Assembly: GCA_902524345.1 (NCBI GenBank)
Contig: CABZCX010000001.1
Span: 253,001 to 317,000, forward strand
Direction: 5' to 3'
Length of the DNA: 64,000 bases
DNA from: an uncultured Pelagibacteraceae bacterium
GTDB taxonomy: Bacteria > Pseudomonadota > Alphaproteobacteria > Pelagibacterales > Pelagibacteraceae
In this document: positions 5,311-9,038 of the stretch, piece by piece
How the letters are laid out: each line of letters starts with the position of its first letter
How positions within the stretch are numbered: position 1 is the first letter of the stretch
The notes under the pieces: model-generated
What the model saw: the letters and a program-made list of their open reading frames with translations, nothing else
The model's database searches: none
Told to the model about the DNA's origin: nothing
Program-made: the position numbers and the translations under genes

Positions 5311-6228
5311 TTAGTTTTCATTAACAAATGCTTTAGCAAATTTTTCAGCATCGAAAATTTGTAAATCATCCTCTTTCTCACCAAGTCCGAGGGCAATAAT
5401 TGGCAATTTATATTTTTTAGCAACAGCTAAAAGAATACCACCTTTGGCAGTTCCATCCAATTTGGTCATGATCAGACCAGTTAAAGGAATAATTTTGTTA
5501 AATTCCTCCACTTGATTAATCACATTTTGTCCTGACGTTGCATCTAAAACTAAAATAATATTGTGAGGAGCATTTTGATCAATTTTTTTTGTTACATTGG
5601 CTATCTTTTTATATTCTTCCATTAAATTTTTTTTATTTTGTAGTCTTCCAGCAGTATCGATTAAAACTTGGTGAAAATTATTTTTGATTGCTTCCTTAAC
5701 TGCTTTGTATGCCACCGATGCTGGATCAGACCCTTGATATGATTTAGTTAATTTAACATCAATTTTATTTGCCCAATTTTCTAATTGTTCAATTGCAGCT
5801 GCTCGAAAAGTATCAGAAGCAGCAAACATAACTTTGTTGCCATTAGTTTTTAATATTTTACCTATTTTACCAATAGTTGTTGTTTTACCAACACCATTTA
5901 CTCCTGAGATTAAAGTTGCATTAAGTTTATCTTTTTTTTCAAAAAAAGAATTATTTTCTAAAGGCTTCATTAAATTAACAATGTACTCTTTTAAAATAAT
6001 ATTTATCTCAGTTGATAGATCTTTGTTGGGATCAATCTTTTTATTCGAAATGATTTCTTTAATTTCAGATGCAGCCTCTACACCAACATCAGATTCAATT
6101 AAAAACTCTTCGATTTTATCTAAATTTTTATCGTCTATCTCTTTTTTTATTATTATTTCTTTTAATCCAGATGTCAGTGCTGAAGCACTTTTTTTAAAAC
6201 CTATCTTAAATTTGTCAAAAATTCCCAT
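5311..6228 (-). CDS. ftsY: Signal recognition particle receptor FtsY
   Basis: FtsY is the membrane-associated GTPase that docks the SRP-ribosome complex at the Sec translocon. The NG domain is complete: P-loop GVNGVGKT (residues 109-116), DTFRAAAIEQL, DTAGR, TKLDGTAKGG and a C-terminal GLGEKEDDLQ. At 305 residues it is a short form without the long acidic A domain of Escherichia coli FtsY; the lysine-rich N-terminal helix MGIFDKFKIGFKKSAS may provide the lipid contact. Its ATG overlaps the dapF stop codon by one base (TAATG), which fixes the start. The partner gene ffh is transcribed away from it on the other side of dapF. Confidence 0.97.
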   Translation of the reverse strand: MGIFDKFKIGFKKSASALTSGLKEIIIKKEIDDKNLDKIEEFLIESDVGVEAASEIKEIISNKKIDPNKDLSTEINIILKEYIVNLMKPLENNSFFEKKDKLNATLISGVNGVGKTTTIGKIGKILKTNGNKVMFAASDTFRAAAIEQLENWANKIDVKLTKSYQGSDPASVAYKAVKEAIKNNFHQVLIDTAGRLQNKKNLMEEYKKIANVTKKIDQNAPHNIILVLDATSGQNVINQVEEFNKIIPLTGLIMTKLDGTAKGGILLAVAKKYKLPIIALGLGEKEDDLQIFDAEKFAKAFVNEN

Positions 6229-7052
6229 TATAGTTTGATCTCAATTTCTTTTATTTCTGAAACGGGTCCTTTCATGTGGATTGAATTTCTATCATCTATA
6301 AGAATTGATAACTTACCTGTTTGAAATTCTATGTCTGTTTTATTTTCATTAAGATTGTTTAATTTACCGGCAAATGCAGTTGCGCATGCAGCTGTTCCAC
6401 ATGCTTTGGTTAGCCCAGCCCCTCTCTCCCATACTTTCACTTTAATCAAATTTTTATTAATTATTTTAGCAATTGTAACATTACATTTTTCTGGAAATAT
6501 TTTATGATTTTCAATTTTGGGTCCAATTTTTTCAATACTAAAATTTTCAATTTCGTTTACAAAAAAAACAATATGTGGATTTCCAACATTAACAGCTGTA
6601 CCACCAAAATGTTCTTTATTATTTAAATCAGTGATCCCTATATTCAAATTTTTAGTATCTAATTTTTCCGATAAAGGAATTTCGTTCCATTGTAATTTAG
6701 CTTTACCAATTTCGGTTGTAACAATATTTTTATCCAAAATTTTTGACTCTAAGTTTCCATTTAAAGTAGATAAGATGATCTTTTCAGCTTTTGTCTCATC
6801 AGAGATTAATTTTGCAACACATCTAGTGCCATTTCCACATGCACCAGACTCCCCTCCATCAGAATTAAAAAATTTTAAATTCGCATCACTTGATTTGCTA
6901 GTCTCAATAAATATTAATTGATCACAACCAATAAAATTTCTATCACAAATCTTTATAATCTGATCTTTAGTTAAATCGGTAATTTTTTGTCTATTATCAA
7001 TGATGACAAAATCATTACCTAATCCATCCATTTTAAAAGCTCTTATCTCCAT
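6228..7052 (-). CDS. dapF: Diaminopimelate epimerase
   Basis: DapF converts LL- to meso-diaminopimelate in lysine and peptidoglycan synthesis. The two catalytic cysteines are visible as Cys72 in SGACGNGTRC and Cys218 in LTKACGTAAC, and the length (274 residues) is normal. The ORF ends in the TAATG overlap with ftsY. In many alphaproteobacteria a MiaB-like methylthiotransferase gene (mtaB) sits between dapF and ftsY; it is not here. The gene reads away from the ffh leader region and probably has its own promoter there. Confidence 0.96.
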   Translation of the reverse strand: MEIRAFKMDGLGNDFVIIDNRQKITDLTKDQIIKICDRNFIGCDQLIFIETSKSSDANLKFFNSDGGESGACGNGTRCVAKLISDETKAEKIILSTLNGNLESKILDKNIVTTEIGKAKLQWNEIPLSEKLDTKNLNIGITDLNNKEHFGGTAVNVGNPHIVFFVNEIENFSIEKIGPKIENHKIFPEKCNVTIAKIINKNLIKVKVWERGAGLTKACGTAACATAFAGKLNNLNENKTDIEFQTGKLSILIDDRNSIHMKGPVSEIKEIEIKL

Positions 7053-7094
7053 ATATATAGTTATTTAACTTATTTATTGACTTTTTGAACCTCT

Positions 7095-7123
7095 ATTATA
7101 GTTTGTGGAAGTTTCCGCAAAAA
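7095..7123 (-). promoter_or_regulatory. Possible promoter for dapF-ftsY
   Basis: On the minus strand the hexamer TATAAT (7100 down to 7095) matches the sigma-70 -10 box exactly. Seventeen bases further upstream is TTTTTG (7123-7118), a weak -35 box. Transcription would start about 37 bases before the dapF ATG. The same bases lie at the 5' edge of the ffh leader, so the two divergent promoters would overlap. Only the -10 box is convincing. Confidence 0.4.
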
Positions 7124-7200
7124 CGTTAAATTTGCGGTGTCTTTGGAAACAAAGAGATCGACACTAGTCAGCGAGGGTTCGCCCACTAGTGCGGTTACTG
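7101..7200 (+). promoter_or_regulatory. Structured ffh leader RNA (ffh motif, putative cis-regulator)
   Basis: Between dapF and ffh lies a stretch visibly richer in G and C than its surroundings and full of inverted repeats. Stems I can read by eye are CCGCAAA (7115-7121) with TTTGCGG (7131-7137); CTTTG (7141-7145) with CAAAG (7150-7154), closed by a GAAA tetraloop of the GNRA type; and CACTAGT (7162-7168) with ACTAGTG (7185-7191), holding an inner GCGA/TCGC stem with loop GGGT. A structured RNA upstream of the gene for the SRP protein has been reported in Candidatus Pelagibacter ubique as a likely cis-regulator, and this matches by position and character. The SRP RNA signature itself is not present, so I do not call it 4.5S RNA. 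Confidence 0.8.
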
Positions 7201-7215
7201 CTGTGTGAAATAAAT

Positions 7216-8574
7216 ATGTTTGAAAATTTGACAAATAAATTTGAGGAAGTCTTTTCCTCTTTAAAAAAAGCACCTTCGCTTGATGAGCGTCAAGTTGATG
7301 AAGGTCTTAGATCCATTAGACAAGCTTTATTAGAAGCTGACGTATCACTTGATGTTGCAAAAGAGTTTATTGAGAAAGTTAAACCTAAAGCTTTAGGACA
7401 AGAAATCATCAGATCTACATCTCCTGGCGATATGGTTGTTAAGATTGTTTACGACGAATTAGTATCTTTATTAGGTGAAAAAAATAATGATGTAAATCTT
7501 AATGCCGTACCACCAGTACCTATGATGTTAGTTGGTCTACAAGGTTCTGGTAAAACTACAACTACCGCTAAACTCGCAAAATATTTGGAAAATAACAAAA
7601 AAAAAAGAGTTATGATGGTGAGTTTAGATATTTATAGGCCAGCCGCCCAAGAGCAATTAAAATCTTTAGGTGAACAAAATAATATTTTAACTCTGCCAAT
7701 AATTGAAGGACAACAACCAGCTGATATTTGTCAAAGAGCAATTAGTGCTGCAAATCTAAATGGTGCTGATGTAATTTTATTTGATACAGCAGGTAGAACA
7801 CAAATAGACTTGCAAATGATGAGTGAAATTAAACAAATCGAGAATATAATTAAACCTGCTGAAACCTTTTTAGTTGCTGACTCTTTGACTGGTCAAGTAG
7901 CAGCATCCGTAGCAAAAGAATTTAAAGATACTGTAAATCTCTCTGGTATAATTTTAACAAGAGCTGATGGTGATGCAAGAGGTGGAGCCGCAGTTAGTAT
8001 GAAATTTATCTCACAAGTACCAATTAAATTTTTGGGTATTGGAGAAAAAATTGATAATCTTGAGGTTTTTCATCCAGATAGAATTGCTAATAGAATTTTA
8101 GGGATGGGAGATATTATTTCTCTAGTAGAGAAAGCGGCTCAAGATCTTGGAGAAGAAAATATTAAAAAGGCAGAAGAGAATTTAAAAAAGGGACAATTCT
8201 CTATGGAAGATTATTTAGCGCAACTAAGACAAATGAAAAAAATGGGTGGAATAGAAGGCATCATGTCTTTTATGCCTGGTGTTTCAAAAGTTAAATCACA
8301 AATGGATGCGGCTGGAATTGATGAGAGTATTATTACAAAGAATGAAGCCATAATATTGTCTATGACAAAAAAAGAGAGAGAGAACCCAAAGATAATTGAT
8401 GGTTCTAGAAAAAAAAGAATTGCTAATGGTTCTGGCACAGATCCAGCCACTATCAATAAGTTGTTAAAACAATTTAAAATGATGTCTGAAATGATGAAAA
8501 AGATGTCAAAGGGTAATTTGAAAGGTATGACTGACAAAGGAATACCTCCAGAATTATTTAATCAATTAAAATAA
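7216..8574 (+). CDS. ffh: Signal recognition particle protein Ffh
   Basis: Ffh binds signal sequences and SRP RNA and, with FtsY, targets membrane proteins co-translationally. The 452-residue protein has the N domain, P-loop GLQGSGKT (residues 107-114), DTAGRTQID, TRADGDARGG and a methionine-rich M domain near the C terminus (MMSEMMKKMSKGN). I place the start at ATG 7216 (MFENLTNKF), which is the family's N terminus; an in-frame GTG at 7189 would run through the leader RNA stem and is unlikely. The gene opens a co-directional run with rpsP, trmD and rplS. Control is probably through the structured leader. Confidence 0.97.
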   Translation: MFENLTNKFEEVFSSLKKAPSLDERQVDEGLRSIRQALLEADVSLDVAKEFIEKVKPKALGQEIIRSTSPGDMVVKIVYDELVSLLGEKNNDVNLNAVPPVPMMLVGLQGSGKTTTTAKLAKYLENNKKKRVMMVSLDIYRPAAQEQLKSLGEQNNILTLPIIEGQQPADICQRAISAANLNGADVILFDTAGRTQIDLQMMSEIKQIENIIKPAETFLVADSLTGQVAASVAKEFKDTVNLSGIILTRADGDARGGAAVSMKFISQVPIKFLGIGEKIDNLEVFHPDRIANRILGMGDIISLVEKAAQDLGEENIKKAEENLKKGQFSMEDYLAQLRQMKKMGGIEGIMSFMPGVSKVKSQMDAAGIDESIITKNEAIILSMTKKERENPKIIDGSRKKRIANGSGTDPATINKLLKQFKMMSEMMKKMSKGNLKGMTDKGIPPELFNQLK

Positions 8575-8588: not shown

Positions 8589-9038
8589 ATGTTAAAGTTA
8601 AGATTATCAAGAGGCGGAACTAAGAAAAGACCCGTTTATAAAGTAGTTGTTGCAGATAGTCGTTTTGCAAGAGATGGTAGATTTATAGAGAAAGTGGGAT
8701 TTTTTAATCCACTATTGCCAAAGGAAAAAAAGGAAAGAATTGGATTAGAAGCAGAACGAATAAAGTATTGGTTGGGTCAAGGTGCACAACCAACAACCAG
8801 AGTAGCAAGGATTTTAGGTGAAAATGAATTAATGCCTATGCCGGCGAATGGAAATAATCCTCAGAAAGCTATTCCAAAAAAAGATCGAAAAAAAGAAGGC
8901 AGTGAGGACGCTAAAAAAGAAGAAGCTCCAAAAGCAGAGGCTCTAAAAGCAGAGGCTAAAAAAGAAGAAGCTCCAAAAGCTGAAGCTAAAAAAGAAGAAG
9001 CTCCAAAAGCTGAAGCTAAAAAAGAGGAAAAGAAATAA
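8589..9038 (+). CDS. rpsP: Ribosomal protein bS16 with a repetitive charged tail
   Basis: Residues 1-80 are a normal bS16 (MLKLRLSRGGTKKRPVYKVV at the start), a 30S assembly protein. The full length is 149 residues, against roughly 80-90 in most bacteria. The extra part after about residue 95 is a low-complexity tail of Lys, Glu, Ala and Pro built from a decapeptide KKEEAPKAEA. The start follows a strong Shine-Dalgarno site. The trmD gene starts 14 bases after the stop; rimM, which usually sits between rpsP and trmD, is missing here. Confidence 0.96.
   Translation: MLKLRLSRGGTKKRPVYKVVVADSRFARDGRFIEKVGFFNPLLPKEKKERIGLEAERIKYWLGQGAQPTTRVARILGENELMPMPANGNNPQKAIPKKDRKKEGSEDAKKEEAPKAEALKAEAKKEEAPKAEAKKEEAPKAEAKKEEKK
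8913..9035 (+). repeat. In-frame 30-base tandem repeat in rpsP
   Basis: Three 30-base units encode the decapeptide KKEEAPKAEA at 8913-8942, 8958-8987 and 8988-9017. They are interrupted by a half unit (LKAEA) at 8943-8957 and followed by a partial unit KKEEKK. The second and third units are identical base for base, which points to recent duplication by slippage or unequal exchange. The repeat keeps the frame and lies wholly in the bS16 tail. Confidence 0.85.

Follow-up and report, generated by a model that had tools for sequence, protein, structure and literature searches.

The ffh motif goes back to Meyer et al. 2009 (PMC2704228), who reported a single bulged hairpin before ffh, found in SAR11 and in the sequenced Rhodobacterales, Sphingomonadales and Rhizobiales but in neither Rhodospirillales nor Caulobacterales, and assigned it no ligand. 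A second described system of relevance is the S16 leader proposed in Flavobacteria, where it precedes rpsP-rimM (Eckert and Weinberg 2020, PMC7247131); the main text of that paper does not contain the word ffh. Here, we analyze a structured RNA on the + strand of a 64,000-nucleotide (nt) stretch of DNA from an uncultured Pelagibacteraceae bacterium (contig CABZCX010000001.1, positions 253,001–317,000; the whole stretch is hereafter termed the window), where it occupies the intergenic gap between dapF and ffh, the gene for the protein of the signal recognition particle (SRP).

This element is a member of the known Rfam “ffh” family. The model RF01793 matches positions 7147–7200 of the + strand at 52.9 bits, over its gathering cut-off of 35 (E-value 3.3e-7), and is the only Rfam family to exceed its cut-off in the window. 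A sequence-only reading of the gap had pointed to the motif of Candidatus Pelagibacter ubique as a likely cis-regulator and suggested a search with the Rfam model, and the match confirms that identity. Shared with RF01793 are a bulged hairpin with a covarying stem (here P3), two near-invariant C residues and the position before ffh; RF01793, however, consists of one hairpin, whereas the present element adds a class-wide hairpin P2 and, in SAR11, a hairpin P1. The Flavobacteria leader, likened here by its description, is similarly a structured 5′ leader of an rpsP operon with covarying stems, but it heads rpsP-rimM, whereas the present element usually has ffh as its first gene. New observations reported here are the covariation of P3 and P2, a wider reach, a placement before rpsP in an order without detected SRP, and the variability of an A.C pair within P3. 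Among titles and abstract starts, no report was found of the rpsP placement, of this SRP loss or of a ligand since 2009, and a search for “ffh motif” in the open full-text literature returned Meyer et al. 2009 alone.

The element in an order without detected SRP

The Rfam model matched 50 of 61 close relatives (own genome included; DNA was read for 43 of the 50) and, in a sample of 289 genomes spanning the class Alphaproteobacteria, 75. Across these 75 genomes, the first gene after the match was ffh in 69 (at most 285 nt away) and rpsP in three, and the contig ran off in three. The three matches without ffh all came from one order, with the element directly before rpsP and the same divergent dapF adjoining; RF01793 was known from before ffh, whereas in this order it stands before rpsP instead. 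The order comprises 18 genomes (G109, G234, G330 and G349–G363; loci L203–L207 are also listed under it), and its members are presumably marine bacteria. Records are labelled PS1 clade (AH-321-D15), OCS116 cluster (AG-390-A19) or Hyphomicrobiales (AH-657-K06); these labels disagree with one another.

The element was kept in 14 of the 18 genomes. All 14 sites lay directly before rpsP, with the first aligned S16 residue 33–40 nt past the match, and dapF was divergent upstream at 13 of them, the 14th being cut by a contig end. At the AG-390-A19 locus, dapF was followed by mtaB with no ftsY frame listed beyond dapF, and in G109 a frame read as rimM, then trmD and rplS, came after rpsP. A search for the Ffh M domain (PF02978) found none in the 18 genomes, with positive results in all controls (5/5 alphaproteobacteria and 14/14 named controls). 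The SRP GTPase domain (PF00448, of Ffh or FtsY) exceeded its cut-off in 0 of 18, a single match lying below it (20.5 bits, G351), and SRP RNA was found in 0 of 18 at E-values up to 10 by a model that also misses the window's own genome. An earlier query with the window's Ffh protein likewise returned 0 of 18, was run without a positive control, and is superseded by the controlled Pfam searches. Because six of the 18 genomes reach 90% completeness or more and none of these six exceeds 5% contamination, chance loss is no fair account of the 18 misses, and an alphaproteobacterial order appears to have lost its entire SRP pathway.

Within this natural deletion, compensatory changes continue to be seen. 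Among 11 distinct sequences, the second pair of P3 was G-C in seven and A-U in four, and the fourth pair was C-G in five, U-A in five and U-G in one. Since these changes arose within the clade, they post-date the SRP loss, if that loss is ancestral, and the P3 stem looks to be still selected without the SRP. Separately, a genome of another family (G114, 93% complete and assembled as a single 1.7-Mb contig) also yielded no Ffh M domain and is a possible second SRP-less alphaproteobacterium.

We propose, with a probability of about 0.45, that the element is a leader of the ffh-rpsP operon whose conserved job would be feedback control of the rpsP operon, with ribosomal protein S16 as the likeliest binder, rather than SRP sensing. 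We favor operon control because the SRP-less order keeps the element directly before rpsP, and rpsP is the predicted regulated gene because it remains next to the element where ffh has been lost. The bolder claim that RF01793 is misnamed, being an alphaproteobacterial S16-type leader through which a single RNA switch governs the synthesis of both SRP and ribosomes, we hold a shade more tentatively.

Viewed from the rpsP side, a structured RNA upstream of the ribosomal protein gene, as in an S16 leader, was found at all 14 SRP-less sites and at 75 of the best 80 named rpsP loci. Of these 75, 70 had the order motif-ffh-rpsP and five had motif-rpsP without ffh; the latter were the records nearest the query and, as far as their contigs matched, belonged to the SRP-less order. 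Three of the five loci without the element were cut off upstream. A model built from the present sequences (R1) matched 176 of the 289 alphaproteobacterial genomes, compared to 75 for Rfam, with the limit that R1 was partly built from genomes later searched and that matches there are not independent. The wider reach includes a record labelled Magnetovibrio, of the order Rhodospirillales, in which the 2009 study found no motif. When 60 further R1 matches were read (part of the total, and including one, G067:C595, that is a second match in an Rfam-matched genome), 59 stood before ffh, 58 of them at most 75 nt and one 519 nt from the match end, and one stood before rpsP; this linkage argues that the added matches are real.

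The element is not universal, since R1 gave nothing above 10 bits at the ffh locus of seven class genomes that have ffh but no match. Two loci labelled Robiginitomaculum (L226, L235) likewise lack a match although their contigs include the beginning of ffh. For the 11 SAR11-side genomes without an Rfam match, the ffh locus is probably missing or broken in the assembly, since the Ffh search found no Ffh domain in ten and one match in a 128-residue frame. Individual loci vary further: rpsP lies ~5 kb on in G312, and in G342 (contigs C62 and C10; L370 and L379) the element stands 287 nt before rpsP. As the Ffh domain of G342 is encoded on a different contig, 925 nt in from its first base, with the ffh start at or near the edge, it is a possible but unproved second case of the element apart from ffh.

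Hairpins, covariation and the conserved tail

The sequence-only reading had described a structured, GC-richer leader with several stems, and its stem coordinates all hold (CCGCAAA at 7115–7121 with TTTGCGG at 7131–7137; CTTTG-GAAA-CAAAG at 7141–7154; CACTAGT at 7162–7168 with ACTAGTG at 7185–7191). Positions 7101–7215 have a GC content of 44.3% compared to 30.6% for the window, a level that only 1.2% of 115-base segments reach. Their fold energy of −38.2 kcal/mol was matched by none of 1065 sampled + strand segments of 115 bases and by none of 37 that were GC-matched; furthermore, 7101–7230 folded at −39.1 kcal/mol compared to −27.6 (standard deviation 3.1) for dinucleotide shuffles, with 0 of 200 as low.

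For covariation analysis, 117 oriented loci were reduced to 83 below 90% identity (first alignment), and 11 of the SRP-less order were added to give 94. Three duplicates or sequences with N and five with a partial or odd model match (L072, L090, L102, L106, L111) were removed, leaving 86 loci (alignments A2 and A3) from 39 families; a grouping into 40 counted the genus of G158 apart from family f1, to which it belongs. P3 (7162–7191, + strand; CACTAGT-CA-GCGA-GGGT-TCGC-CC-ACTAGTG) comprised 85 distinct sequences, in which 99.8% of cells were standard pairs and two-sided changes occurred at 10 of 11 pairs. None of 500 shuffles reached the observed covariation on four measures and one of 500 did on a fifth (further pair types), and slid controls fell far below. 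Compensatory changes in the stems, the test that the sequence-only reading had put forward, are thus abundant across diverse loci.

The mismatch C7169.C7184 was C.C in 86 of 86 sequences. The neighboring A7170.C7183 position, by comparison, was A.C in 46 (spread over 17 families), a standard pair in 23 (C-G in 12, over 11 families; G-U in five; G-C in three; U-A in three) and another mismatch (A.A, U.U or A.G) in 17, so that C.C is the sole fixed irregularity of P3. This variability bears on a likeness to helix 8 of SRP RNA (RF00169). The Ffh site of SRP RNA has an invariant A.C pair, and we take the leader's short 5′ GUCAG stretch and A.C pair, by eye, to resemble that helix. The RF00169 model, however, finds no match at the site, a Rfam search of 6900–7400 up to an E-value of 10 found no SRP RNA family, and the A.C of the leader, far from invariant, is a standard pair in many families.

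The window's own genome has no SRP RNA match even at an E-value of 10, and a complete genome of the same genus has one at 33.9 bits; the own-genome SRP RNA perhaps lies in an assembly gap or is too diverged. The missing RF00169 match had raised the idea that the ffh motif substitutes for SRP RNA in SAR11, and it was rejected because SRP RNA was found in 49 of 61 genomes (E-value 0.001; 38 over cut-off), genomes of the same genus included.

The GNRA hairpin is present where the sequence-only reading placed it but folds further than it had proposed, P2 spanning 7135–7160 of the + strand (CGGU-G-UCUUUG-GAAA-CAAAGA-G-AUCG), of which the RF01793 model covers just the 3′ strand. Swapping P2 halves between families (86 loci) changed the energy from −12.1 (native) to −6.9 kcal/mol (Z-score −12.5), an average cost of ~5 kcal/mol. 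Four shifted controls gave Z-scores of −3.0 to 0.3, and P3 gave −14.5 in the same test; a P2 window shifted by +45 overlaps P2 or P3 and is no clean control. Together with the fold, these results support P2 as a second hairpin that covaries across the 39 families.

P1 (7115–7137, + strand; CCGCAAA / TTTGCGG) is kept on the SAR11 side, where its pattern CCG...GCGGT occurred at 44 of 45 loci, the remaining locus (L054) having a diverged counterpart. Class-wide, its swap Z-scores were −4.7 to −5.9 compared to −4.8 and −3.1 for upstream controls, which does not set P1 clearly apart from them; the windows shifted by +40, +60 and +80 run into P2 or P3 and make poor controls, that at +60 (Z-score −15.6) being in effect P3. 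P1 and P2 cannot both be fully formed, because the outer pairs of P2 and P1 share positions 7135–7137.

Following P3 at a fixed distance is a conserved tail, C-N-N-U-N5-U-U-(G/U)-G, here CGGUUACUGCUGUG (7192–7205, + strand). P3 was located in 142 of 146 loci for tail and U-run counts, and tail frequencies in these were 0.73 for C+1, 0.85 for T+4, 0.85 for T+10, 0.92 for T+11 and 0.68 for G+13, with AT-rich genomes often having C at +10. A helix (P0) closing the element by pairing its 5′ end with the tail seemed convincing on inspection of some loci but was rejected, as its swap Z-scores (−2.2 and −3.3) did not improve on a control (−3.3). As a further observation, RNAalifold on an alignment of the SRP-less order (A4) paired the tail with the 5′ half of P2, a possible P2/tail switch; some sequences of the order had two-sided changes at two of the four pairs, and the pairing was weak class-wide (Z-score −3.2 compared to −2.3 to 0.8 for controls).

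The ffh locus and its putative promoter

Genes at the locus were named from NCBIfam equivalog models with scores over their cut-offs. On the + strand, ffh (7216–8574; TIGR00959, 558 bits, with PF02978 and PF00448 matches in frame) is followed after 14 nt by rpsP (8589–9038; ribosomal protein S16, TIGR00002, 99.5 bits) and, in the same gene run, by trmD and rplS, which encodes L19 (9053–10331; NF000648, 295 bits, and TIGR01024, 141 bits), with no rimM frame between rpsP and trmD in the window. Divergent on the − strand are dapF (6228–7052; TIGR00652, 239 bits) and, beyond it, ftsY (5311–6228; TIGR00064, 317 bits). Loci of other alphaproteobacteria (L071, L103, L105, L108 and L112) likewise have ftsY beyond dapF, at a distance fitting a gene between.

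A putative −35 element, TTGACT, lies at 7077–7082 of the + strand, and TTGAC was found 72–115 nt 5′ of P3 at every one of the 86 aligned loci compared to 8 of 83 in a control window 320–420 nt upstream. In the window, the spacing to the −10 element (TATAGT, 7097–7102) is short, and the promoter is absent from the consensus scan list. Based on the conserved position of the TTGAC box, transcription would be predicted to start just before P1, likely near 7110. We infer that transcription begins at the TTGAC promoter, that ffh and rpsP share one transcript and that the leader works in cis.

The last stem ends 24 bases before the ffh ATG (7216), as the sequence-only reading had stated in suggesting that the RNA could control ribosome access. 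Such control is possible in SAR11 given this short distance. Outside SAR11, the match end lies anywhere from about 0 to 428 nt from the gene start, in addition to the R1 site at 519 nt, and so variable a gap makes direct masking of the ribosome site unlikely as a general rule.

Candidate functions of the leader

In the proposed mechanism, the element would form the 5′ leader of a shared ffh-rpsP mRNA transcribed from the TTGAC promoter, and S16 (or another operon product) is predicted to bind P3, with its fixed C.C mismatch, and the tail. Binding would lower translation, or promote mRNA decay or termination, and where ffh is present Ffh levels would be adjusted along with those of the ribosome. 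Feedback by a product is the usual mode of ribosomal operons, which would make this the most economical account, with S16 first in line. The 16S rRNA site of S16 spans several helices.

Several points weigh against feedback control of the rpsP operon by S16. At the 14 SRP-less sites, the RNA may persist because of a role that has nothing to do with any operon product, such as mRNA stability, and the products of trmD and rplS are also candidate effectors. The absence of SRP RNA from the order is weak evidence, because the same model misses the window's own genome. In G290, the element precedes an ffh interrupted after residue 137, the following 15 kb contain no rpsP, and this one site could be counted against the element-rpsP linkage. 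Furthermore, Meyer et al. (PMC2704228) cite small-RNA surveys that detected the transcript, which fits a free small RNA too, and a U-run that often follows P3 suits a terminator-like role.

On the last point, P3 and the U-run could stop some transcripts or protect the 5′ end with no dedicated ligand. At least four consecutive U residues occur within 10 nt of P3 at 51 of 142 loci (43 of 100 that are GC-rich) compared to ~2.5% of background windows, and the spacing between P3 and the conserved tail is constant. Yet the U-run is found at none of 45 SAR11-side loci and is absent from nine of the 14 SRP-less sites (present at five), a terminator scan of the + strand lists nothing here, and the invariant C.C mismatch is unexpected for a plain terminator. 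We consider this terminator-like or stabilizing function a serious rival, though an unlikely one.

Cleavage or termination of the leader could alternatively release a stable small RNA acting in trans, as would suit the Rfam type of RF01793 (“Gene; sRNA”), the small-RNA metatranscriptomes in which, according to Meyer et al., the transcript was seen, and an RF01793 entry in a Mesorhizobium sRNA list. However, none of the 60 further matches read lies away from ffh or rpsP, and trans action would not need the linkage to rpsP after ffh is lost; we judge this account quite unlikely.

Ffh autoregulation would have unbound Ffh, or SRP RNA, attach to the leader and so repress translation of ffh; binding by either had been suggested in the sequence-only reading. 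This account draws on the location of the element ahead of ffh in almost every lineage examined and on the helix 8 likeness, but it is improbable given that the element, rather than occurring only where Ffh does, is kept with compensatory changes where Ffh, FtsY and SRP RNA were undetected, that its A.C position is not kept, and that the site has no Rfam SRP match.

The SRP is usually called universal, and its apparent loss in a bacterial order would be a rare exception in itself. Beyond this, an SRP-less clade that keeps the element makes the ligand question directly testable, extending it past Ffh to S16, L19 and other downstream products. If S16 binds, a single RNA would couple the production of SRP to that of ribosomes in a large part of the Alphaproteobacteria.
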